Source: Gemmatimonadaceae bacterium (GTDB lineage Bacteria; Gemmatimonadota; Gemmatimonadetes; Gemmatimonadales; Gemmatimonadaceae). Taken from it: DNA of 64,000 nt. The notes beneath the pieces were generated by a model that was not told the DNA's origin, ran no database searches, and saw only the letters and a program-made list of their open reading frames with translations. The stretch covers positions 62,001 to 126,000 of the forward strand of contig DATNEW010000050.1 in NCBI GenBank assembly GCA_035606695.1. Reading direction: 5' to 3'. Every line of letters starts with the position of its first letter. Within the stretch, counting starts at the first letter, position 1. Below are positions 3,743-43,921 of the stretch, in pieces. The position numbers and the translations under genes are program-made.

Positions 3743-4132
3743 GTGGCCATTCGAATCGTTCGCCTTGGCAGTCCGCGCGAGCCCGGTGAGGGATTGCGGA
3801 TAGGCACCGTGCGCCGGCCGCCCCGCGGCGTGAAAAAAGCGGACTACGCGCGACGCGACTACTTCGATCTCTGGTTTCCCGACTTGGCGCCGAGCGCGGC
3901 CGTTGTTTCCTCTGCGATGTCGGAGCCTTGGACTCCTGCTCGATGGAAAGCCTTCGCGCGCCGGTACCGGGCCGAGATGAAGAAACCGGAAAAGCAGCGT
4001 CTCCTCGAGCTTCTCGCCGAACTGTCGAAGCAGACGGACTTCTCCGTCGGGTGCTACTGCGAGGATGAATCACTGTGCCATCGGTCGCTCCTCGCTGAGC
4101 TGCTCGAGGAAGCCGGCGCCGACGTGAAGTGA
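3743..4132 (+). CDS. DUF488-family protein
   Basis: A 129-residue protein from a GTG start at 3743. It has the DUF488 (YeaO-like) pattern: an N-terminal RLGSPREPGEG loop, a WFPDLAPS segment, a helix with WKAFARRYRAEM, and a C-terminal SVGCYCEDESLCHRS motif with three cysteines and a histidine. The biochemical role of the family is not established; the Cys/His cluster could bind metal. No membrane segment. It converges with the secreted propeller gene 13 bp downstream. Confidence 0.75.
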   Translation: MAIRIVRLGSPREPGEGLRIGTVRRPPRGVKKADYARRDYFDLWFPDLAPSAAVVSSAMSEPWTPARWKAFARRYRAEMKKPEKQRLLELLAELSKQTDFSVGCYCEDESLCHRSLLAELLEEAGADVK

Positions 4133-4145
4133 ACGGGACAGCGAG

Positions 4146-5120
4146 CTACGGCAGCGGACAGTTCGCGATGTGCAGCGGAACGCCGTGCCCTTCACTCGAG
4201 AACACGAACCGTCCATCATTCCGCGCCCAGCTCACGCCTTCGCCTTGTGGTTCACCAAGCGGGGCAATGTCGCAGACACTGGCGCCGACGGCGTGATTCA
4301 CCCGCCCCGTGAGTGAATCCGTCGCGAAAATGTAGAGCTCACCGTACGTCCGCACGGCGAGATGCTTCGCGTCGAAGGAGAGCGAGGCATCGGTGATCGT
4401 GCGCAGCGGCGTGGACCCGGGAACGATAGGTAGACTGTCTACACGTTCGGCCACGACACGGTTCCGCTGAGTCCATACGCTCGCCGGCAAGCGGTACACG
4501 AGCGCGGGACGCAGATGCAGCGTGCGGGCACGCTCCGGCCGCTTCGTGATCAGAAACGTGTCGCCGTTCGGCGCGACGTACATTGCCTCGACGTCGTGCT
4601 TGCCGTCGGGATACGTATACGACACGCTGTCCGGCGACAGCGCTCCAGTGAAGCTCGAATCCCTCGGCTCCGCCTCAGCGACGCGGTAGATCGTGCGCGA
4701 CGAGTGAAAGCTTTCGTTGTCGCCAACGTCGCCGATATAGACGCAGCGCGGCCGCGCATCGTTCGCGCATCGGCCGATGGACGCCGCCTCCCAATCCACG
4801 TTCGTCGCGCCCGCGATGCGCCATACCCCGCGATCCGCACCGGTGGTGTCGAGCGCGAACAAGAGCGGTTCATTTCCAGAATCGTTCACGGTGTACAGCA
4901 CACCGGGATACTGCGCGCTCATCACGGCCGCCGAGTTCTCGACGAGATCGGGCCGTGCTCGCGTCGGCACCGTGACGATGTCTCTCAACGTCGAAAGATT
5001 CGCGCGAACGCGGTCGGCCGGCGCGGCGTCTTTGGCACACGCCACGCCCACGAGAAGCGCCGCCAATCCCAAGCGCCATGCGACGCCGCGAAATAGATTC
5101 CGATCCATGTCCATGCTCAT
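4146..5120 (-). CDS. Predicted exported lipoprotein-like beta-propeller protein
   Basis: About 320 residues with a hydrophobic N-terminal export signal ending in VGVACAK, a lipobox-like site with a non-standard -3 residue. The mature part has repeated strand motifs typical of a propeller (YTVNDSGNEPLLFALD, ATNVDWEAAS, VYIGDVGDN, KHDVEAMYV), seen in uncharacterised extracellular propeller proteins. Possible ATG starts are 5120, 5114 and 5108, all at or within a few bases of the divergent M20 gene start. No catalytic residues can be assigned. Confidence 0.65.
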   Translation of the reverse strand: MSMDMDRNLFRGVAWRLGLAALLVGVACAKDAAPADRVRANLSTLRDIVTVPTRARPDLVENSAAVMSAQYPGVLYTVNDSGNEPLLFALDTTGADRGVWRIAGATNVDWEAASIGRCANDARPRCVYIGDVGDNESFHSSRTIYRVAEAEPRDSSFTGALSPDSVSYTYPDGKHDVEAMYVAPNGDTFLITKRPERARTLHLRPALVYRLPASVWTQRNRVVAERVDSLPIVPGSTPLRTITDASLSFDAKHLAVRTYGELYIFATDSLTGRVNHAVGASVCDIAPLGEPQGEGVSWARNDGRFVFSSEGHGVPLHIANCPLP

Positions 5121-33452: not shown

Positions 33453-35372
33453 ATGAGCGAAAGTCGACGCCCACCTCGTCGCGGACGTGGTCGACGTCCG
33501 TCCAATCAGTCCAACGCCGAGACGGGCGACAATCCGTATCGCGAGGACGGCGAAGGCGGTGGCGGACCACCTGCCGATTCCGGCGGTGTGAGCACCGAAA
33601 CAGCATCCAGTCGCGATCGCGGCGGTAGTGCCGACGCACCGAGCGAGTCGAGCGAGTCGAGCGAGTCGAGTGAGCCGAAGGAAGCTCGGGAACCGCGCGA
33701 ACCGCGCGGAGGCCGCCGACCGAAAGAGCCACGCCAACCGCGCGCACCGCGCGGTGAGCGCGCCGCGAGCGAGGAAACGTTCAGCGGCGAACGCCCCGAC
33801 CGTAGCGGCGAACCTGCCGATCGTAGTGAGCGTAGCGACGCCGCGGCGGATAGCGGCGGACAAACAACTACGGGACCGAGTGGTCCGAGCAGCGGCGGCG
33901 GATACTCTTCCGACAACGCGCCATCCGTCACAAGCGGCGGCGGCGGAAGCGGTGGGAGTGGCGCCGGCGGCGGATCGCAACAGAGCGACACCAGCGGCGG
34001 CGGCGGCTACCGCGAAAGAAATCAGCAAGGCGGATACGATCGCCACAATCAACACCGCGATCGCGACGGCAGCTTCAACGATCGCCGCAACGGACGCCGA
34101 CATCGCCGCGGGCGCGGACGTGGTCCGCGTCGCGACGGGCGTGATGGCGGCGACCGCAATCAAGGTGGCGAGCGCAGTCAGGGCGGCGAGCGCAATCAAG
34201 GCGGTGAGCGCAACCAGGGCGGCGGACAGCCGCAGCAACCCATTCAACTCACGGCCACCGGCGAAACGCGCGGTTGGTTCGACTCCGCACGCGACGCAGG
34301 CTTCATCCGGCGGTCCGGCAACAGCTATCTCGCCGAAGCGGGCGACGCGTACGTTCCGCCGCACGTCGTGCGACAGTTCTCGCTGCGCAAAGCGGATCTC
34401 ATCGACGCGACGATCGGTGTCGATCAACGCGGCCGTCCAACGGTCGTCGAGATTCGCACCATCAACGACGCCGATCCGCAGGCCGCCGCGAAGCGCCCGG
34501 ACTTCAATTCGCTTCCCGCGTCGTATCCCGAGCGGAAGTTGTTCCTCGAAACGGGACGGCCCGCCAAGGGCGGACCGGAGCTCACCCGGCGCGCGGTGGA
34601 TCTCATCGCGCCGATCGGCTACGGTCAGCGGGCGCTGATCGTCGCACCGGCACGCGCCGGCAAGACGACGCTGCTTCACGCGATCACGGAAGGCGTCGCG
34701 CTGAACCACTCGAACGCGGCGCTCCTCATTCTGCTCGTGGACGAACGTCCGGAGGAAGTGAGCGAAGCAATCTCCTGGGGCGTCGGCGAAGTCGTGTCGT
34801 CGAGCTTCGATCAACCGGCGGCGCGTCACGTCGAAGTCACCGAGATGGTGCTCAATCGCGCGCACCGACTCGTCGAGAGCGGGAAGGACGTCGTCATCGT
34901 GCTCGATTCACTCACGCGCATGGCGCGCGCGCACAACACGGCGGAACGCGGCACGGGTCGCACGCTCTCGGGTGGTCTCGACGCCACGGCGATGGCGAAG
35001 CCCAAGGCCTTTTTCGGATCGGCGCGCTCCATTCCGCAGTCGTCGGGCGGCGGATCGCTGACGATCATCGCGACGGCGCTCGTCGAAACCGGCTCGCGCA
35101 TGGACGACGTGATCTTCGAGGAGTTCAAGGGCACGGGCAACTGTGAGATCAAGCTCGATCGTGGACTCGCCGAGAAGCGCATCTATCCGGCGATCGACAT
35201 TGGGACGAGCGGCACGCGCCGCGAGGAGAAGCTCTTCCGGCCGGACCAGATCGACAGCGTGTATACGCTGCGGCGGGGGCTGGCGCAGATGCCGCCGCAG
35301 GCCGCGATGGAGTGGTTGATCAAGCGGATTGCGGCGACGCCAAGCAACGATCAGTTGCTGGCCGGGCTGTAG
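33453..35372 (+). CDS. rho: Transcription termination factor Rho with long low-complexity N-terminus
   Basis: A 639-residue Rho, against ~420 in E. coli. Residues 1-265 are a Ser/Glu-, Gly- and Arg-rich, probably disordered extension with SES and NQGGER repeats. The core starts near 270 with the OB-fold RNA-binding site, then Walker A PARAGKTTLL (~398-407), Walker B with VIVLDSLTRMAR (~480-490) and the Q/R-loop region. The hexameric helicase releases RNA polymerase. The canonical N-terminal helix bundle is not recognisable. The basic Arg/Gly tail could bind RNA or promote condensation, as proposed for other high-GC Rho proteins. Confidence 0.95.
   Translation: MSESRRPPRRGRGRRPSNQSNAETGDNPYREDGEGGGGPPADSGGVSTETASSRDRGGSADAPSESSESSESSEPKEAREPREPRGGRRPKEPRQPRAPRGERAASEETFSGERPDRSGEPADRSERSDAAADSGGQTTTGPSGPSSGGGYSSDNAPSVTSGGGGSGGSGAGGGSQQSDTSGGGGYRERNQQGGYDRHNQHRDRDGSFNDRRNGRRHRRGRGRGPRRDGRDGGDRNQGGERSQGGERNQGGERNQGGGQPQQPIQLTATGETRGWFDSARDAGFIRRSGNSYLAEAGDAYVPPHVVRQFSLRKADLIDATIGVDQRGRPTVVEIRTINDADPQAAAKRPDFNSLPASYPERKLFLETGRPAKGGPELTRRAVDLIAPIGYGQRALIVAPARAGKTTLLHAITEGVALNHSNAALLILLVDERPEEVSEAISWGVGEVVSSSFDQPAARHVEVTEMVLNRAHRLVESGKDVVIVLDSLTRMARAHNTAERGTGRTLSGGLDATAMAKPKAFFGSARSIPQSSGGGSLTIIATALVETGSRMDDVIFEEFKGTGNCEIKLDRGLAEKRIYPAIDIGTSGTRREEKLFRPDQIDSVYTLRRGLAQMPPQAAMEWLIKRIAATPSNDQLLAGL
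33641..33667. repeat. 9-bp tandem repeat in rho
   Basis: Three exact copies of GAGCGAGTC, encoding part of a Ser-Glu-Ser run in the disordered N-terminus of Rho. A degenerate fourth follows. Change in copy number would stay in frame. Confidence 0.7.
34155..34226. repeat. 18-bp tandem repeat in rho
   Basis: Four imperfect 18-bp units beginning CGCAATCAAGGTGGCGAG, encoding four hexapeptide units of the RNQGGE type just before the RNA-binding domain of Rho. Confidence 0.75.
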
Positions 35373-35383
35373 TCGCGGCGGCA

Positions 35384-35523
35384 GTGAGGCCCGCGCGCTT
35401 TGCGCGCGGGTGGTGTGGGCGGCGGCGCCTAGGGCCGCCAGGGTGGGGCCGGCGCTTGGCGCCGTAGGCGCGGCCCAACCATCGCGAAGCGGCCCAACCA
35501 TCGCGAAGCAGGCGGCCTAACCG
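35384..35523. repeat. Intergenic multi-hairpin repeat element, copy 1
   Basis: Three successive units, each beginning GTGNGG and containing its own hairpin: CCCGCGCGC/GCGCGCGGG, then GGCGGC-type/GCCGCC arms, then GGCGC/GCGCC. The element ends with two exact 19-bp copies (35471-35489 and 35490-35508) of CGGCCCAACCATCGCGAAG, then CGGCCTAACC. It fills the space between rho and the BamA-like gene, and may stop rho transcription. A related copy is at 42459. Confidence 0.7.
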
Positions 35524-35573
35524 GCCACAACAATACGCCTTCGGGTCTATAGCTTGCTCTACAGTTGGCCGTC

Positions 35574-37805
35574 ATGCGCCACGCCCTCATATGCGTGTTC
35601 TTGACGGTTGCCGTGTTCTCACCGACAGCCGCCGCTCAGAACACGCGTAATCAACAACGCGAAGCGCCTGAAGTCCGGAAGCTCACGTTCACCGGCGTCA
35701 AACACGCCGATCTGAACGACCTCCAGAAGAGTCTTTCGACACAGGCGTCCAAGTGCAGGAGCTTGTTGCTCCTGCCCTTCTGTCTGTTCAGCCACTCGCC
35801 GACGCTCGAGGACAAGCACTACTTCGACGAGAACGAATTCCGTCGCGACGTCACGCGCATTCGGCTCTACTACTGGAAAATCGGCTATCGCGACGCGACG
35901 GTCGACACGACCGTCGAGAAGACGGCACGGCGTCAGGTGCACGTCGCGTTCAAGATCACGGAAGGACCGCCGACCCTCATTCGCAAGATCGCCATCACGT
36001 ACGACACGGCGCTCATTCCGACCAAGATTCGGAACCGGCTCACGACGTTGCACGCGAAGGACCCGCTGAATCTCCTGCAGCTCGATTCCATGCGCGTGAT
36101 GTTCCAGAACGAGCTCTGGGACCAGGGCTACGGCGACGCGGTCGTCGACACGACGGTCAGCGTCGACACGGCGCGTCGGCTGGCCGACGTCCGGCTCACG
36201 CTGATCGAGAACCATCGCACGACGGTGGGCCGGGTGACGATATCGGGCATCAAGCGGATCAACGCGAAGACGGTGCTCAATTCACTGACCTTCGGCACCG
36301 GTGATCTGTACCGGCAGACGGACATTCTCGAGAGCCAGCGCAATCTGTACGAGTCGAACCTGTTCCAGCTGGCGGCGATCGACGTGCCCGTGCAGTACGA
36401 CAGCGTGAAGAACATCAACATCGACGTCACCGAAGCGCCGCTGCACGAGGCGCGCGTCGGACCCGGCATCAGCAGCCTCGACTTCCTGCAGGTTGAGGGA
36501 CACTACACGGCGTACAATCTGTTCGGCGGCGCGCGGCGGCTCGACATCGACGGCACCGTCGGCAATCTGCTCGCGAGCTCGCTCCAGGGTCGCGGATTGT
36601 TCCGCGACGTGCAAGCCGACGTGCCGTTCGGCGCGAGCGCGTCACCGTTCCTTCAGGCCACGTACAACGCGAGCATCGACTTCAAGCAGCCGGCGTTTCT
36701 CCAGCGGCCGGCGGATCAAGCGGGCTTCGGCACGTTCGCGCACCGCACGATCAACCCGGGCGTGTTCATCGATCAGGGATACGGCGGCCAGGCGACGTTC
36801 ACGCACATCGTTCGCCTGCGCGCGCCGGTGAGCGTCAACTACCGCTTCGAGCTCAATCGGGTCGAAGCGAGCGACGTGTATTTCTGTTTCAACTTCGGCG
36901 TGTGCGACGGAACGACGATCAGCACGCTACGCTCGCACCAGTCGCTCTCGCCGTTGACGCTCACCGGGTTCATCGACCGCTCCGACGTTCCGTTCTCGCC
37001 AACCAAGGGGTACGTGCTCCGGCTCGATTTCGAGAACGCGTCGGCGCTCACGTTCTCCGACTATCGCTACAACCGCGCGTTCATGGACGGCGCGTTCTAC
37101 ACGCATCGCAGCGGGTCGAAGTCCGTGTTCAGCGGCCATCTTCGCCTGGGCTGGGTGCGCCCACTCGGTACCGGACCGGACGCGGGCATTTTGCACCCGC
37201 GCAAACGCTTCTACGCGGGCGGCGCGAACTCCGTGCGTGGATTCGCCGAGAGCCAGTTGGGCCCGCGCATTTTGACGGTCGACGATTCGACGTTGGTGAA
37301 AAGCGCGACCAGCATCAACGGTGGGCGCTGTGCGGCCACACTCGCGGGCGTGAAGTTCTGCGATCCGAACACGCCCGCTCTCTCCAACGGCGACTTCATT
37401 CCGCAACCACTCGGCGGCACGTCGCTGGTCGAAGGCAGTCTCGAGTACCGCATGCCGCTTCCGCTCGGGCAATCGCTGCGGCATCTCGTGGGCGCGGTGT
37501 TCGTCGACGGCGGCATCGTCGGCAGCGCGCCGGTGGCGGGACTGCAGACGGTCAGCAATTTCATCCATGGCACGGGCGCGATCACGCCCGGATTCGGCGT
37601 GCGGTACGCGTCGCCCGTCGGTCCGATTCGCGTCGACATCGGCATCAACCCGAATCGTGTCGAGAAACTTGGCGTCGTGACGGCGGTGCGCGACAGCACC
37701 GGCAAGCAAGTGATCGTGCCGCTCGCCGTCAGCCGCTCGTTCGCGAACGGCAAGACCTTTCTCAACCACCTGACGCTGCACTTCTCGATCGGAGAAGCGT
37801 ACTAG
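35574..37805 (+). CDS. BamA/TamA-family (Omp85) outer-membrane assembly protein
   Basis: A 743-residue protein with a signal peptide ending in TAAAQ. Residues ~30-290 contain three POTRA-like domains (for example RKLTFTGVKHADLNDLQKSL and GRVTISGIKRINAKTVLNSL). The rest is a 16-strand barrel with the family VRGF motif (GGANSVRGFAESQLGPR). It inserts barrel proteins in the outer membrane, or works as TamA with a TamB partner. The first POTRA has an insertion with two cysteines around CRSLLLLPFC. The stop TAG shares its last base with the GTG of the TamB-like gene. Confidence 0.88.
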   Translation: MRHALICVFLTVAVFSPTAAAQNTRNQQREAPEVRKLTFTGVKHADLNDLQKSLSTQASKCRSLLLLPFCLFSHSPTLEDKHYFDENEFRRDVTRIRLYYWKIGYRDATVDTTVEKTARRQVHVAFKITEGPPTLIRKIAITYDTALIPTKIRNRLTTLHAKDPLNLLQLDSMRVMFQNELWDQGYGDAVVDTTVSVDTARRLADVRLTLIENHRTTVGRVTISGIKRINAKTVLNSLTFGTGDLYRQTDILESQRNLYESNLFQLAAIDVPVQYDSVKNINIDVTEAPLHEARVGPGISSLDFLQVEGHYTAYNLFGGARRLDIDGTVGNLLASSLQGRGLFRDVQADVPFGASASPFLQATYNASIDFKQPAFLQRPADQAGFGTFAHRTINPGVFIDQGYGGQATFTHIVRLRAPVSVNYRFELNRVEASDVYFCFNFGVCDGTTISTLRSHQSLSPLTLTGFIDRSDVPFSPTKGYVLRLDFENASALTFSDYRYNRAFMDGAFYTHRSGSKSVFSGHLRLGWVRPLGTGPDAGILHPRKRFYAGGANSVRGFAESQLGPRILTVDDSTLVKSATSINGGRCAATLAGVKFCDPNTPALSNGDFIPQPLGGTSLVEGSLEYRMPLPLGQSLRHLVGAVFVDGGIVGSAPVAGLQTVSNFIHGTGAITPGFGVRYASPVGPIRVDIGINPNRVEKLGVVTAVRDSTGKQVIVPLAVSRSFANGKTFLNHLTLHFSIGEAY

Positions 37806-40800
37806 TGGCGGCGTGGCGCGAAGGCGAGGGGCGTCGAGCGCTGGGCGACGGGCGAGACACCATCACGGTCGTACCGCCCGACGAGAAGCTCCACTGGGGA
37901 CGCGGCATTCTCGTGGGGCTGTCGATGATCGTCGGGCTCATCCTGCTGGCGATCATCGCGGTGCTGGTGCTCACCGGCACGGACTGGGGGCGCGAGCGCG
38001 TGCGGCGGTTCGCGGTGAACACGCTCAACGGGACGATGCACGGGCACGTCACGATCGGTCGGCTCTCCGGTAACCTGCTTACTGGAATGACCATCCACGA
38101 CCTCGCGATCACGGACAGCAGCGGCAAGCCGTTCGTGGCGGTCGAATCGTTCAAGGGCGACTACTCGATCATGGGTTTGCTGCGGAAGCACATCTGGATC
38201 GACGATGCCGTGCTCGTGAAGCCGCTGATCGTCCTCGACCGTCCGCCCGGCGGCACATGGAACTGGCAGCGGATCTTTCCACGCGACACGACGCCCAAGC
38301 CCGCGAGCCAACAAACCGGATGGTTCGATTGGCTGCGGTTCACCAATGCGTCCGTCGTCAACGGACAACTCATCGTTCGCTCGGAGTGGAAGCCGGGCGA
38401 AGGACTGAAGACACAGGCGGCGCGCGACAGCGCCATTCGCGTCGCCCTGGGCGGCGGTTCGCGGTTGATGATCTCGCGGGTCCCCGGCGGATTTCAAAAG
38501 ACCGTGCAGCTCGACTCGGTTACGGGGACCTTTCCGCTGCTGCGCCTTGCCGAGCCCGGTCGCAAGGATCGGTTGCTCGAAGTGTCGTCGCTGCGGATGG
38601 ATGCGTTTCCCTTCCGCGCGCCCGGCGCGCTCGTGCGGGATCTCAAGGGGACGTTCCCCTTCAACAACGATTCGATCTGGTGGAAGGGCGCGTACGTCGC
38701 GCTGCCGCAGTCGCGCGCCAACGGCGACGGGCGCTACGCGTTCAGCTCCGGCGACATCACGCTCAAGGTGCACAGCGATCCGGCGAACTTCGCCGACATG
38801 CGCTGGGTGTATCCTCGGCTGCCCGACGGGCACGGCAAGCTCGATCTCGACATGTCGTGGAAGGGGTCGGTGCAGACATATGTGTTTCATAATGCCGATA
38901 TCGTAATGGGCGCAGCCAGGGCCGACGGTTCGTTCGGCATCACGCTCGCCGACACGATCTCGATTCACGATACGAATCTCCGCTTCTCGGGCCTCAGCAC
39001 GAAAACGCTCGAGCAGCTCATTCCGCACTTCAGGTCGCCGCGCCGCGGGGTGTTCGCGGGGCGTGCGACCGTGCAGGGCGGACGGCATGCATTGGCCGTC
39101 AACGGCGACGTGCGCTTCGACGACACCCAAGCAGGTGCGAGCCGAGTGACGGGAGTGGGCGAGATCGGCTTCCTCGACAACGGCGGCGTGCGCGCGCGCG
39201 ATCTCAAGGTCGAGATGCTTCCGCTGCAGGTGGACATGGCGCGCACGTGGGATCCGACGCTGCCGATCGGCGGCATTCTCACCGGCTCGGCGACGGTGAA
39301 CGGCTCGACCAAGACCGAGTTCGCGGCGACGATGAATCTCGATCTGCGCGACCGCGGTACGCAGTCGGCGGTGGCGGGCAAGGCGACGATGCGCCTGTCG
39401 GGCGGCAAGGCGTTCGACGTCGACGTGACCGCGCGGCCCGTGTCGCTCGTCGAGGTGGGCCGCTTTTTTCCCGCCGCGGGATTGCAGGGAAGCGCAACCG
39501 GGCCGATTCGTCTCACGGGAACGCTGTCGAATTTGCGATTGCAAACCGCGCTTCGTCTGCCCGACGGTGGTCACTTCGATGCGCGTGGCGCGCTCGATCT
39601 CGCAAGCAAAGAGAAAGGCTACGACCTCACGGCGAACCTGTTCACCATCAATCTCCGCACCGTCGATACAAAAGCGCCGATCACGTCGCTCACGGCGCAC
39701 GCCGTGGTGCGCGGCCGAGGAACGAGCTTGCCGACGATGCGTACCGCGCTCGCCGCCGATCTCTCCACCTCGCGCTGGGACAGCATCGCGGTCGACACGG
39801 TGTCGATTCGCGCGAGCGTCGCCGACGGACTCGCGAACATTCAGAAGCTCTACGCCCTTGGCGCTCACACCACGGCGAACGTGTCGGGCACGTTTGGTCT
39901 CGTGCGCGGCCGCAGCGGGGAGCTCACCTACAACGTCGCCGTCGATTCACTCGGCGCATTCAATCGGTGGCTTCCGAAGACGCCGGGTTCGACCGCGCCC
40001 GTGCAGCCGAGGCCGGGGGTTGTCGCGCGGGCGGTGCGCCGTGCGAAGGCGGATTCGGCGCGCATCGATCGCGCGACGGAAATGGAACGCCTGATCAACG
40101 GGCGGCCGGGCCCGAAGCTCGTCGTCAATGTGCCGCAGGCCGTGCCCGCGGATACGATGACCGGCAAGGTGTATGCGGCCGGCAAGATGCGCGGCAACAT
40201 CTACGATTTCGATCTGAATGGCCGTGCGGGTGGCGAGAACATCGTGTTCCGCGGCAATTCGATTCGGCAGTTCGCGAGCGAGTACGTGTGGACGAACGCT
40301 CGCTCTCCGCAATCGAAACTTGCGGTGGGACTCGACGCGGGCGGCGTGAGCGCGATGGGCTTTGCGTTCGACACCGTGAACGCGCGCGTCACGTATGCGA
40401 CGCCGGGCGGTCACGTGGAGCTCGTGGTGCGGCAAGGCGACAATCGCGAGTACGGCGCGCGCGGCGACTACGCGCTGTATCCCGATCGCCGAGAGCTGCA
40501 GCTTGCCAACATGACGTTCCGGTTCGATACGGCGTACTGGTCGATGCCGCATCCGTCGACCGTCGTGTGGGGCGGACCGGGCATTCGCGTCGAACACTTC
40601 GAACTGCGCGACCGCGGCAACGGGCGTCTCTACGCGAACGGATTGCTGCCGACGAATGGCGTCGCCGACTTCACGCTCGACGTCGATCAGTTCCCTGTCG
40701 CGAACATCTCCGACATTCTCCAGTCGGATCTTCAGATCACCGGCGTGCTGATGTTGCATGGGTCGATGACGGGAACGATGACGAACCCCGCGTTCCGCGG

Positions 40801-42451
40801 CGCGTTCGCGCTCGTGAGCGGCACGTACAACGGCACGGTGATGCCCGATCTCCGCGGCCGGTTCGGCTACGCGGACGAGCAGCTCGTCTCTCACATCGAT
40901 GCCTTACGCAACAGCAGCCAGCTGCTCGCGACGGCCGATGCGCGGCTGCCGATCAATCTCGCGCTGAGCGGCGTGACGGGTCCGCGCCTCTTACCCGAGC
41001 CGATGCAGGTCGACGTCGTCGCCGATAGTCTGCCGCTCGAGCTCGTGCCGCAATTCACCGATCTCGTGTCGAACGTGCATGGGCGGGCTTCGGGAAAATT
41101 CGCGATGCGCGGCACCTTGAGCCGTCCGACGCTCGTTGGCGCGGTCACGCTCGATCACGGAACGGTCACGCTCAATCAGACGGGCGCCACCATCAACAAC
41201 CTGGCGGGATCGATTCGCATGGCGAACGACACCGTCTACGTTGATTCGATCGCGGGAAACGCGAAGGGCAACGTTCGCGTGCGTGGCACGTTGGCGGTCG
41301 GTAACTGGCGCGAACCGTCGTTCAATCTGTATCTGGTCTCGAGCGGCGCGCAGTTGATGAACAACGACATGGCGAACATCGGCGTGGATGCGGGGCTCGC
41401 GTTGACGGGACCATTCAAGTCGCCGTATCTGAGCGGCGCCGTGACGATCGTTCAAGGTGTGGTGTACGCGCCGGAGCCGACGGGCCGGCACCTGATCGGC
41501 GCGGGCGACCCGGCGCTCTTCAACGTGCTCGACACCGCCATCACCGCGGATCGCGATCTCTTCCCGTCACCGTCGCCGCTCGTCGCGAATCTGCGCATGG
41601 ACGTGACGCTCGCGGTCGATCGCGACGTCTGGGTGCGCAACCGCGAAGCGAACGTCGAGGTGTACACCGACGAGCCGCTCATCATTCACGAGCTGGCGCA
41701 GTCGTTCGCGATCACCGGCATCGTGAGCACCGATCGCGGCGAGTACAATTTCCTGAGCAAGCGGTTCCAGATCACGCGCGGCTCGGCCATGTTCATCGGG
41801 AGTCCGGATCTCAATCCGACGCTGCAGGTCACGGGCGAGTATGCGGTGCAGCTCGCGTCGCGCGGCACGCTGGACATTCGCGTGCTGATCGGCGGCACGT
41901 TAAAGAAGCCGACGTTGTCGCTCGAGAGCGACGCACAGCCGCCGAAGACGCAGTCGGAGCTTCTCAGCCTGCTCGCGTTCGGGCAGTCGACGACGACGCT
42001 GCTGGCGTCGGGATCGTCGAGCGTGGCGGGTTCGGCGGCGACGATGGATTTGTTCGGTGTCGGCGCGCAAGTCGCGGTGCGCCGATTGGCCAGCGTGGCG
42101 CTTGGCGTGGCGGTGGATCAGGTGCAGGTACAGACAGGCCGCGCGCTCGGTCTCGACGTATTCAACATCACGCCGGCCGACGTGCCGGACATCTCGGGTC
42201 AGGGGATCGGCAATTTCCTGACGCAGACGAAGTTCGAGGCGGGCAAGTACGTCAACCCGCGCACGTTCGTGAGCGGGCAGGAATCTGCGGGACAGCTTGG
42301 TGTGGCGATCCAGCATCGGACGAATGGCGGCTGGACGTACAGCGCGAGCTTCGAGCCGCGGATCGTGTTGCTGGAACCGAAACTGAACGCCCCGCAGTGG
42401 AGAACGCAGCGGACGATTGGTGGCTTTATTATCCGAGAGTGGAAGTTTTAG
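37805..42451 (+). CDS. TamB/AsmA-like translocation and assembly protein
   Basis: A 1548-residue protein from GTG 37805. A short basic cytoplasmic start and one membrane anchor (LSMIVGLILLAIIAVLVLTG) are followed by a very long beta-rich periplasmic region and a C-terminal TamB domain (PKTQSELLSLLAFGQSTTTLL, late barrel-like strands). TamB proteins bridge inner and outer membrane, moving lipid or helping barrel proteins. A reading that starts at 36902 lies inside the BamA-like gene and is rejected. With the upstream Omp85 protein it forms a TamA-TamB-like pair. Confidence 0.85.
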   Translation: MAAWREGEGRRALGDGRDTITVVPPDEKLHWGRGILVGLSMIVGLILLAIIAVLVLTGTDWGRERVRRFAVNTLNGTMHGHVTIGRLSGNLLTGMTIHDLAITDSSGKPFVAVESFKGDYSIMGLLRKHIWIDDAVLVKPLIVLDRPPGGTWNWQRIFPRDTTPKPASQQTGWFDWLRFTNASVVNGQLIVRSEWKPGEGLKTQAARDSAIRVALGGGSRLMISRVPGGFQKTVQLDSVTGTFPLLRLAEPGRKDRLLEVSSLRMDAFPFRAPGALVRDLKGTFPFNNDSIWWKGAYVALPQSRANGDGRYAFSSGDITLKVHSDPANFADMRWVYPRLPDGHGKLDLDMSWKGSVQTYVFHNADIVMGAARADGSFGITLADTISIHDTNLRFSGLSTKTLEQLIPHFRSPRRGVFAGRATVQGGRHALAVNGDVRFDDTQAGASRVTGVGEIGFLDNGGVRARDLKVEMLPLQVDMARTWDPTLPIGGILTGSATVNGSTKTEFAATMNLDLRDRGTQSAVAGKATMRLSGGKAFDVDVTARPVSLVEVGRFFPAAGLQGSATGPIRLTGTLSNLRLQTALRLPDGGHFDARGALDLASKEKGYDLTANLFTINLRTVDTKAPITSLTAHAVVRGRGTSLPTMRTALAADLSTSRWDSIAVDTVSIRASVADGLANIQKLYALGAHTTANVSGTFGLVRGRSGELTYNVAVDSLGAFNRWLPKTPGSTAPVQPRPGVVARAVRRAKADSARIDRATEMERLINGRPGPKLVVNVPQAVPADTMTGKVYAAGKMRGNIYDFDLNGRAGGENIVFRGNSIRQFASEYVWTNARSPQSKLAVGLDAGGVSAMGFAFDTVNARVTYATPGGHVELVVRQGDNREYGARGDYALYPDRRELQLANMTFRFDTAYWSMPHPSTVVWGGPGIRVEHFELRDRGNGRLYANGLLPTNGVADFTLDVDQFPVANISDILQSDLQITGVLMLHGSMTGTMTNPAFRGAFALVSGTYNGTVMPDLRGRFGYADEQLVSHIDALRNSSQLLATADARLPINLALSGVTGPRLLPEPMQVDVVADSLPLELVPQFTDLVSNVHGRASGKFAMRGTLSRPTLVGAVTLDHGTVTLNQTGATINNLAGSIRMANDTVYVDSIAGNAKGNVRVRGTLAVGNWREPSFNLYLVSSGAQLMNNDMANIGVDAGLALTGPFKSPYLSGAVTIVQGVVYAPEPTGRHLIGAGDPALFNVLDTAITADRDLFPSPSPLVANLRMDVTLAVDRDVWVRNREANVEVYTDEPLIIHELAQSFAITGIVSTDRGEYNFLSKRFQITRGSAMFIGSPDLNPTLQVTGEYAVQLASRGTLDIRVLIGGTLKKPTLSLESDAQPPKTQSELLSLLAFGQSTTTLLASGSSSVAGSAATMDLFGVGAQVAVRRLASVALGVAVDQVQVQTGRALGLDVFNITPADVPDISGQGIGNFLTQTKFEAGKYVNPRTFVSGQESAGQLGVAIQHRTNGGWTYSASFEPRIVLLEPKLNAPQWRTQRTIGGFIIREWKF

Positions 42452-42458
42452 CTGCTTG

Positions 42459-42547
42459 GTGAGGCCCGCGGGCTTCGCCGCGGATGGTGAGGGCCGCGGC
42501 CTAAGGCCGCGAGTGTGAGGCCGGAGCTAGCGCGCGCGGGCCTAACC
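42459..42547. repeat. Intergenic multi-hairpin repeat element, copy 2
   Basis: Three units beginning GTGAGG: the first holds CCCGCGGGC, the second GCCGCGGCC with TAA and GGCCGCG, the third ends in GCGCGCGGGCCTAACCC. The order and start motif match the element at 35384. It lies 8 bp after the TamB-like stop, and its right edge covers the stop codon of the convergent M20 dipeptidase gene. Confidence 0.7.
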
Positions 42548-43921
42548 CGGAACGACCAGTTCGTCCCACAGCGCCGCCATGGCGACCGCGCCGCGTTCAT
42601 AGTTGTCCACCGAAATCCATTCGTTCGGAGCGTGCGCATTCTCCCCCGGCAACCCAAACCCCACCAGCAACACCGGCGCATTGAGAATTCTCTGAAAATC
42701 GCCGACGACCGGAATCGAGCCGCCCTCGCCGACGATCACCGGCTCCTTCTCGTACGCCGCCTTGAGCGCGCGCCGCGCGGCGTCGAACAGCGGACCATTC
42801 AGCTCGGCGCGCCACGGTGTGCCGCCGTGCAAGTGGGTCACCGTTACCGTGACACCGGCCGGCTTCACGCGCTCCACGTGCGCGCGCATCAATTCCTCGA
42901 TCTCGGCAGGCGCCTGATCCGGAATGAGGCGGCAGCTCACCTTCGCCATTGCCTTCGACGGCAGCACGGTCTTGGCGCCCTCGCCCGTGTATCCGCTCAG
43001 CAAGCCGTTCACCTCGCAGGTCGGACGCATCCACAAACGCTCGAGCGTCGAGTAGCCCTTCTCGCCGAACAAGTCGGGCGAGCCCGTCTCCTTTCGTAAA
43101 TTCTCATCGCTGAACGGCAGCGCGCGGATGTCCTTGCGCGCCTGCTCGCCCCAGTCGCGGACCTTGTCGTAGAAGCCGGGAATCGCGATGTGGCCGTTCG
43201 CATCGTGCATGGTGGCGAGAATGCGCGCGAGCGCCATCGCCGGATTCATCACCGCGCCACCATAGCTGCCGGAGTGCAAATCGGTCGTTGGTCCCTGCAC
43301 GTCGATCTGGAAGTACGCCAAGCCGCGCAACGAAGACAGAATCGAGGGAAGCCCGGGCGCGAACATCGCCGAGTCGGAGATGACGACGCCGTCGCACTTC
43401 AAGAGATCGGTGTGTGCCTCGATGAACGCGGTGAGATTCTCGCTCCCCACTTCCTCTTCGCCTTCGGCGAGGACGATGATGTTCACCGGCAATTTGCCGC
43501 GCGTTTTCAAGTGCGCTTCAAGGGCCTTCACGTGCAGAAACAGCTGGCCTTTGTCATCCACCGATCCACGTGCATAGATACGGCCGTCGCGAATCGTCGG
43601 CTCGAACGCCGGACTGTCCCACAACTCCAGCGGCTCCGCCGGCTGCACGTCGTAGTGGCCGTAGATGAGGATCGTCGGCGCACCCTTCGGCGCGTTCCGC
43701 CACTCACCGACGACGATCGGATGGCCGGGCGTCGCATGTACGTTGGCGGTGAGACCGATCTTGCGCATCGAGTCCGCCACCCAATCCGCGGCACGCGCGG
43801 TGTCGGGGTTGTGCTCGGAGCGCGCGCTGACGCTGGGAATGCGCAAGAGCTCGAACAATTCGTCGAGCGCGCGCTGCTGGTTCGACGACAAATACGCCGC
43901 GAGATCGGTGGACAGTGGCAT
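42542..43921 (-). CDS. M20-family dipeptidase
   Basis: A 459-residue cytoplasmic zinc dipeptidase, no signal peptide. Metal and catalytic motifs: GHYDVQPAEP (His and Asp), RGSVDDKGQ (bridging Asp), AEGEEEVGSE (catalytic Glu and metal Glu), and a dimerisation-domain TTDLHSGSYGG. The late PGENAHAPNEW supplies the last His. This is the pattern of the PepV/CNDP-type group that cleaves dipeptides. It converges with the TamB-like gene. Confidence 0.9.
   Translation of the reverse strand: MPLSTDLAAYLSSNQQRALDELFELLRIPSVSARSEHNPDTARAADWVADSMRKIGLTANVHATPGHPIVVGEWRNAPKGAPTILIYGHYDVQPAEPLELWDSPAFEPTIRDGRIYARGSVDDKGQLFLHVKALEAHLKTRGKLPVNIIVLAEGEEEVGSENLTAFIEAHTDLLKCDGVVISDSAMFAPGLPSILSSLRGLAYFQIDVQGPTTDLHSGSYGGAVMNPAMALARILATMHDANGHIAIPGFYDKVRDWGEQARKDIRALPFSDENLRKETGSPDLFGEKGYSTLERLWMRPTCEVNGLLSGYTGEGAKTVLPSKAMAKVSCRLIPDQAPAEIEELMRAHVERVKPAGVTVTVTHLHGGTPWRAELNGPLFDAARRALKAAYEKEPVIVGEGGSIPVVGDFQRILNAPVLLVGFGLPGENAHAPNEWISVDNYERGAVAMAALWDELVVPG

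Follow-up and report, generated by a model that had tools for sequence, protein, structure and literature searches.

Low-copy composite hairpin repeats, mostly at gene ends, in a Gemmatimonadaceae genome: a family resembling REP and BIME elements

We found seven copies of a composite hairpin repeat in the genome of a Gemmatimonadaceae bacterium (hereafter G000; a draft of 5,905,535 bases in 50 contigs, 99.35% complete), two of them in the window, the 64,000-nucleotide stretch that was analyzed. The copies were found by BLAST and by a sequence pattern, and single diverged units could escape this count. We give an even chance to the reading that they are low-copy, apparently species-private REP/BIME-like composite repeats, most of them transcribed at 3′ ends as hairpin barriers. 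By analogy with REPs, they probably function as transcribed 3′-end hairpins.

Each unit is 19–33 nt long: a GTKNGG head is followed by a GC-rich, short-looped stem and then by a tail (mostly GATG) that runs into the next head. A variable number of direct units comes first and inverted units follow, which allows pairing between the outer heads and hairpins on either strand (Table 1). In the six copies tested, the outer heads paired at 7–9 of 9 positions with G–T pairs allowed. The initial annotation had placed two elements at 35384–35523 and 42459–42547, each described as GTGNGG plus a hairpin three times over. Both are present, the first ending at 35522, and five of the six units agree with that description, including the hairpins of copy 1 at 35384, 35413, and 35443, but the third head of copy 2 (42515) lacks a clean hairpin; the element is indeed a repeated one, with the variable layout given above rather than a three-hairpin design. 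The 19-bp direct repeat noted in copy 1 also exists (35470–35488 and 35489–35507), although it amounts to minimal inverted units and is not special to copy 1, C9:12033 having the same 19-mer. In copy 2, the closing inverted head includes the TAG stop of the M20 peptidase gene (42542–42544, minus strand).

Table 1. Coordinates of the two repeat copies and their units in the window.
Feature	Position	Strand	Description	Basis or remark
Copy 1	35384..35522		Composite array, direct then inverted units; between rho and Omp85	Read; BLAST copies elsewhere
Copy 1, direct unit 1	35384..35412	+	Head GTGAGG, 9-bp stem, loop TTT	Inverted repeat
Copy 1, direct unit 2	35413..35442	+	Head GTGTGG, hairpin, AGG tail	
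Copy 1, direct unit 3	35443..35467	+	Head GTGGGG, hairpin with loop TTG	
Copy 1, minimal inverted unit	35480..35498	-	GTTGGG head on minus strand	With its neighbor forms the 19-bp direct repeat at 35470-35507
Copy 1, last inverted unit	35499..35521	-	GTTAGG head on minus strand	
Copy 2	42459..42547		Composite array in the gap where tamB and the M20 peptidase gene converge	BLAST match to copy 1, E 3.0e-12
Copy 2, direct unit 1	42459..42486	+	Head GTGAGG, bulged hairpin, GATG tail	
Copy 2, direct unit 2	42487..42514	+	Head GTGAGG, 7-bp stem, loop TAA	
Copy 2, third head	42515..42531	+	Head GTGAGG, without clean hairpin of its own, running into inverted head	
Copy 2, closing inverted head	42539..42547	-	GGTTAGGCC	

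A BLAST search of G000 with copy 1 returned copies on C23, C9 (two), C32, and C50 (copy 2), with E values of 1.8e-18, 2.6e-16, 8.7e-13, 3.0e-12 (copy 2), and 2.3e-7. The unit-to-unit pattern GTKNGGSC-N7..30-GATGGTKNGG had 16 matches in the genome, some overlapping, of which 15 fell within the seven elements, while the same pattern reversed, used as the control, had none; the short element at C36:142786 was detected by this pattern alone. The remaining match, at C1:86916, was set aside as chance because, by eye, no array surrounds it. The two window elements are thus not the only copies, and although they do bracket the Omp85–TamB gene pair, as the initial annotation had stressed, this bracketing does not define the family, since five copies lie elsewhere. 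Searched with Rfam 15 at the gathering score, the window had no match, and across 11 element loci none fell at an element. The sole match in those loci was a TPP riboswitch away from the element (67.9 bits, at 260–361 of the C23 stretch of G000), upstream of the gene that precedes the C23 copy.

Five of the seven copies start 4–11 nt past a stop codon: copy 1 at 11 nt (after rho), copy 2 at 7 nt (after tamB), and those on C23, C32, and C36 at 4, 7, and 9 nt, respectively, so that the early remark that both window elements lie just past a gene stop was correct. By gene calls (made with a home-made gene caller, genes being named by Pfam), three copies are located between convergent genes, two between genes in the same direction, and two, both on C9, between divergent ones; hence, not all copies are 3′-end elements. 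At one of the latter, C9:35523, a called gene overlaps the element, and the oxidoreductase domain of that gene begins beyond it. The suggestion that the elements could be terminators found no backing in the sequence: sites combining a hairpin with a T-run were absent from 35300–35700 and from 42400–42640. rho itself is encoded in the window; a second Rho-like gene (G000:C9:120781–121608) is 59% identical to the window Rho over the part searched, and one is also present in the five other genomes of the genus.

The stems differ in sequence while their pairing is kept, as had been proposed, and this holds at the level of the unit. The outer three stem positions paired in all 21 complete units, four in 18 of 19, and five of five in 16 of 19. 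In an arm-swap test on 10 distinct five-base arm pairs, 94.0% of stem cells paired within units, against an average of 59.3% (maximum 90.0%) when right arms were swapped among units; in 20,000 swaps the observed pairing was never attained (P = 5e-5), so that the covariation check came out in favor of co-varying arms. This test used fixed registers and omitted unit C9au2, whose stem is broken, as well as units fused with inverted neighbors, the third head of copy 2 among them. Unit borders were read with the hairpins in view, which favors pairing, and the swap control preserves composition, not that choice. RNAalifold, applied to five elements, predicted 14 pairs, in three of which both partners had changed. 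By contrast, the whole junctions of copy 1 and copy 2 folded no better than dinucleotide shuffles (z = −0.66 and −1.19; 0.01 and −1.04 in a second run), and a blind k-mer array score misses both copies (p = 0.40 and 1), as did a separate k-mer scan. Conserved pairing is supported at the unit level, not by the total fold.

In build and place, the family resembles the GTAG REPs and BIMEs of Di Nocera et al. (2013; PMC3733652). These combine a short unpaired head with a palindrome of 20–40 nt, have stem sub-families with alternative complementary bases and units in both orientations, mostly adjoin gene 3′ ends, including those of convergent pairs, and have termini that can supply a TAG stop. Our units are likewise stem-loops of comparable size (19–33 nt) with paired variation in the arm-swap test, they are intergenic and mostly downstream of genes (5/7 near a stop), and they are inverted within one composite, as in BIMEs. 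The differences lie in the head, the copy number, and the mobilizing gene. Among 21 units, the heads were GTGA (11), GTGG (3), GTTG (3), GTGT (2), GTTA (1), and GTGC (1), and the GTKN head of this family was never GTAG (0/21); the unpaired tag GTAG, GYAG, GYRG, GTRG, or GTMG is thus lacking, with GTGG alone fitting one of these degenerate forms. Seven composite elements fall short of the high copy numbers of REPs and REPINs. The Y1_Tnp profile (PF01797) had no match in G000, which speaks against mobilization by a resident RAYT, and none in four other genomes of the genus (G002–G005), whereas it occurs in one of the six genus genomes (G001) and in 30 of 179 family genomes. The Y1-type transposase gene of G001 (C166, ~3832–4161) is flanked by GGGGTCAGACCC-type inverted sequences, and by eye no units of the window family were seen around it.

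With no GTAG tag, no Y1 transposase, and few copies, we do not file the family as a GTAG REP; it is best called an atypical, RAYT-less REP/BIME-like variant. It shares with the REPINs of Pseudomonas and Stenotrophomonas (PMC3686654) small palindromic repeats in species-specific classes, and replacement of one class by another is described for those REPINs; but they rely on a cognate RAYT and range from tens of copies to more than a thousand in a genome, in contrast to our few copies with no RAYT found. The initial impression of a new-looking repeat needs qualifying: the kind closely resembles REP/BIME, and what sets it apart is the missing GTAG tag and the absence of a detected RAYT. Copy 1 had no BLAST match in 39 relatives. 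Within the open-licence literature, titles and the openings of abstracts pointed to no paper on REP-like repeats in Gemmatimonadetes or Gemmatimonadota; the string ‘gemmatimonas’ occurs 0 times in PMC3733652 and ‘gemmatimon’ 0 times in PMC12306157.

The relatives just mentioned include five other genomes of the same genus (G001–G005, of which G005 is a sister species), and the BLAST threshold was E ≤ 0.001. By this sequence comparison, the family looks private to its species. The unit pattern does occur in at least 108 of 179 family genomes, our own included, but among the matches listed the next-highest counts were 7 and 6, and the reversed control matched in many of them too; we took these matches as chance. 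Different arrays are located at some of the same gene ends in sister species. By eye, the rho–Omp85 junction contains repeated short units or an inverted repeat in all six genus genomes, with differing sequences; the blind array test was passed by four of the six (G001, G002, G004, and G005) and failed by G003 and G000. Arrays also follow tamB in G005 and G004; in G002 that gene directly adjoins the peptidase gene, and G001 and G003 are not informative at this end. In G004, the reverse strand at this end carries tandem GACGCAGAGG units and then inverted CCTCTGCGTC units (array p = 0.002). In another genus, Roseisolibacter, the convergent peptidase–tamB junction contains GGGAGTCGT units, direct then inverted by eye; the best named relatives of the window peptidase are in a Gemmatimonadetes MAG and in Roseisolibacter, each at 76% identity (a list from which our own genome was possibly omitted).

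In the sister species G005, both the rho–Omp85 and the tamB junctions contain GTAGGGTCG-hairpins, so that it brackets the same Omp85–TamB pair with a repeat family of its own. This GTAGGG family occupies seven places, mostly gene ends, and by BLAST has no match in the five other genus genomes and no similarity to the window family. Like the window family, it has a GTNNGG head, with heads closing on inverted heads; unlike it, it combines a true GTAG head with a core of ~130 nt that is strongly conserved and has a predicted multi-branched fold, closed by the heads GTAGGGTCGC and GCGACCCTAC. The core fold is predicted to have 55 pairs, three with double changes, and its covariation term is slightly unfavorable (+1.56); Rfam gave no match for the core.

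Gene mapping showed that three genes, namely rho, tamB, and a cytochrome c-like gene, have the window family at their ends in G000 and the GTAGGG family there in G005. At the third site, only the upstream gene is common to the two genomes, the downstream neighbor being different, and by eye an array is present in G000 and G005 only; G003 has one hairpin there, the next gene seems to start directly in G001 and G002, and two G004 relatives are without an array. In total, counterparts of five window-family sites could be found in G005: the GTAGGG family is present at three, and the other two, corresponding to C9:12033 (divergent) and C36:142786, are free of an element, the latter with a stop-to-stop gap of ~9 nt in G005 versus ~72 in G000. 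The G005 stretches compared did not yield C23:60961 or C9:35523, and the G000 stretches compared did not yield the G005 sites C40:212007 and C6:51178, one match at 43% identity being rejected as an orthologue. Two further G005 sites match other arrays of G000, with GGGATGGC units at C12:71060 and, by eye, GCGCCCA units at C32:47.5 kb, and at another GGGATGGC site, C50:143380, G005 has no array.

The probability that two families of seven copies share three or more sites by chance is 7.5e-5 if ~457 junctions bear arrays (an extrapolation to 5.9 Mb from 53 in 684 kb), 0.007 if 100 do, and 0.05 if 50 do. The similarity of the two families at the same site, set against that across sites, was too weak to favor either common descent or independent arrival. 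We regard the three-site overlap as suggestive of more than chance, not as proof. Repeat families seem to be replaced over time, with certain positions at gene ends retained. Going further, it is possible, though we hold it only tentatively, that gene ends of this genus keep a hairpin array whose sequence family is replaced between species, with the position inherited or re-targeted, as RAYT-less overwriting at fixed 3′-end addresses; the rho and tamB ends would be the clearest case. Turnover at one address has precedent: in Pseudomonas and Stenotrophomonas, one REP class is described as giving way to another over time (‘orthoswitch’; PMC3686654), and PMC3733652 mentions two Xanthomonas recB genes that carry different REPs at nearly the same position. 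What would be new is its apparent extent over the gene ends of one genus.

Arrays of any family were counted at gene junctions in segments of 60–600 bp (array p ≤ 0.02), in stretches some of which had been chosen for holding elements. In the G000 stretches scanned (684 kb, 53 array-bearing junctions), they were most frequent at convergent junctions (14/41, against 32/137 same-direction and 7/67 divergent ones), and in those of G005 they occurred at 10/34, 16/122, and 4/50, respectively. C26 of G000 alone gave 7/22, 21/91, and 4/36. In C20 and C35 of G005, which were not chosen for elements, the values were 5/19, 12/81, and 4/27, the last two being alike. Other hairpin or short-unit arrays of G000 include GGGATGGC-hairpin arrays at C12:71060, C50:143380, C9:52690, and the tail of C23; that at C12:71060 is followed, by eye, by a separate hairpin with a T-run. 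C26 and G005 also contain many intergenic short-unit arrays of other families, often direct then inverted, for instance GTCATCCCGAGCG... hairpins, GCGCAGTTTGGAAGGCA tandem units, and GTGGACCGTGGATC units.

How do these results bear on the nature of the repeats? The REP/BIME-like reading fits the two element-free counterparts in G005, as expected from gain or loss of discrete elements, but it has to accommodate seven copies, which are few for a REP family, two of them between divergent gene calls, whole folds of both window copies no better than shuffles, a GTAG count of zero in 21, the lack of a detected Y1 transposase, and unselected G005 arrays that are no commoner at same-direction (12/81) than at divergent (4/27) junctions. 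The same two vacant sites, C9:12033 and C36:142786, would suit MITE-like elements moved by a transposase of another family, with GGTGAGGCC...GGCCTMACC as terminal inverted repeats and incidental effects on transcripts, as would the ends of six copies that pair at 7–9 of 9 positions. Such elements are unlikely, however, given a variable number of units instead of a fixed interior, most copies adjoining stop codons, no transposase linked to the repeats (Y1 being the family searched), and no consistent target-site duplication, the longest common words in the 12-nt flanks being GGC, AG, GCGG, CC, GCGG, and GCGCGC.

Positions at gene ends and between convergent genes, together with GC-rich hairpins on both strands, are also what two-way terminators would look like, if long GC-rich hairpins alone halted RNA polymerase at convergent ends. 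We consider this improbable: neither window element has a terminator-like site, and the related array at C12:71060 has its separate T-run hairpin downstream, which would be needless if the array itself terminated transcription. More mundanely, the arrays could be neutral by-products of local slippage or template switching in GC-rich, signal-free gene ends, with shared sites that are simply long 3′ junctions. The many short-unit arrays of differing sequence in the genome agree with such an origin, both window copies fold overall like shuffled DNA, and the three shared sites are borderline (P = 0.05) if only ~50 junctions can hold an array. It is a doubtful explanation all the same, as stem arms co-vary and the same unit family recurs in the same A–B order at unlinked loci, which requires copying between loci.

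On the REP/BIME-like reading, the copies would have spread by copying at the DNA level, and most would be present in RNA as the first part of the 3′ untranslated region, acting there as barriers. Transcript ends that are Rho-dependent or diffuse might be trimmed back to the stable hairpin, and the two-way layout may serve both genes of a convergent pair. PMC13289151 describes E. coli REPs as stabilizing the 3′ ends of RNA while taking no part in termination, and interprets Rho-dependent ends in E. coli as the result of trimming to such hairpins. Hairpins 4–11 nt from a stop codon might also influence ribosome release; PMC12306157 reports ribosome stalling by REPs located within 15 nt of a stop. 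Gene ends that tolerate or profit from hairpins may be kept or re-occupied as families replace each other, which would explain a different family at the three common gene ends in G005.

If families truly replace each other at the same gene ends, one could ask what copies such elements in the absence of a RAYT, and it would become testable whether selection acts on the presence of a hairpin at a given address rather than on its sequence.
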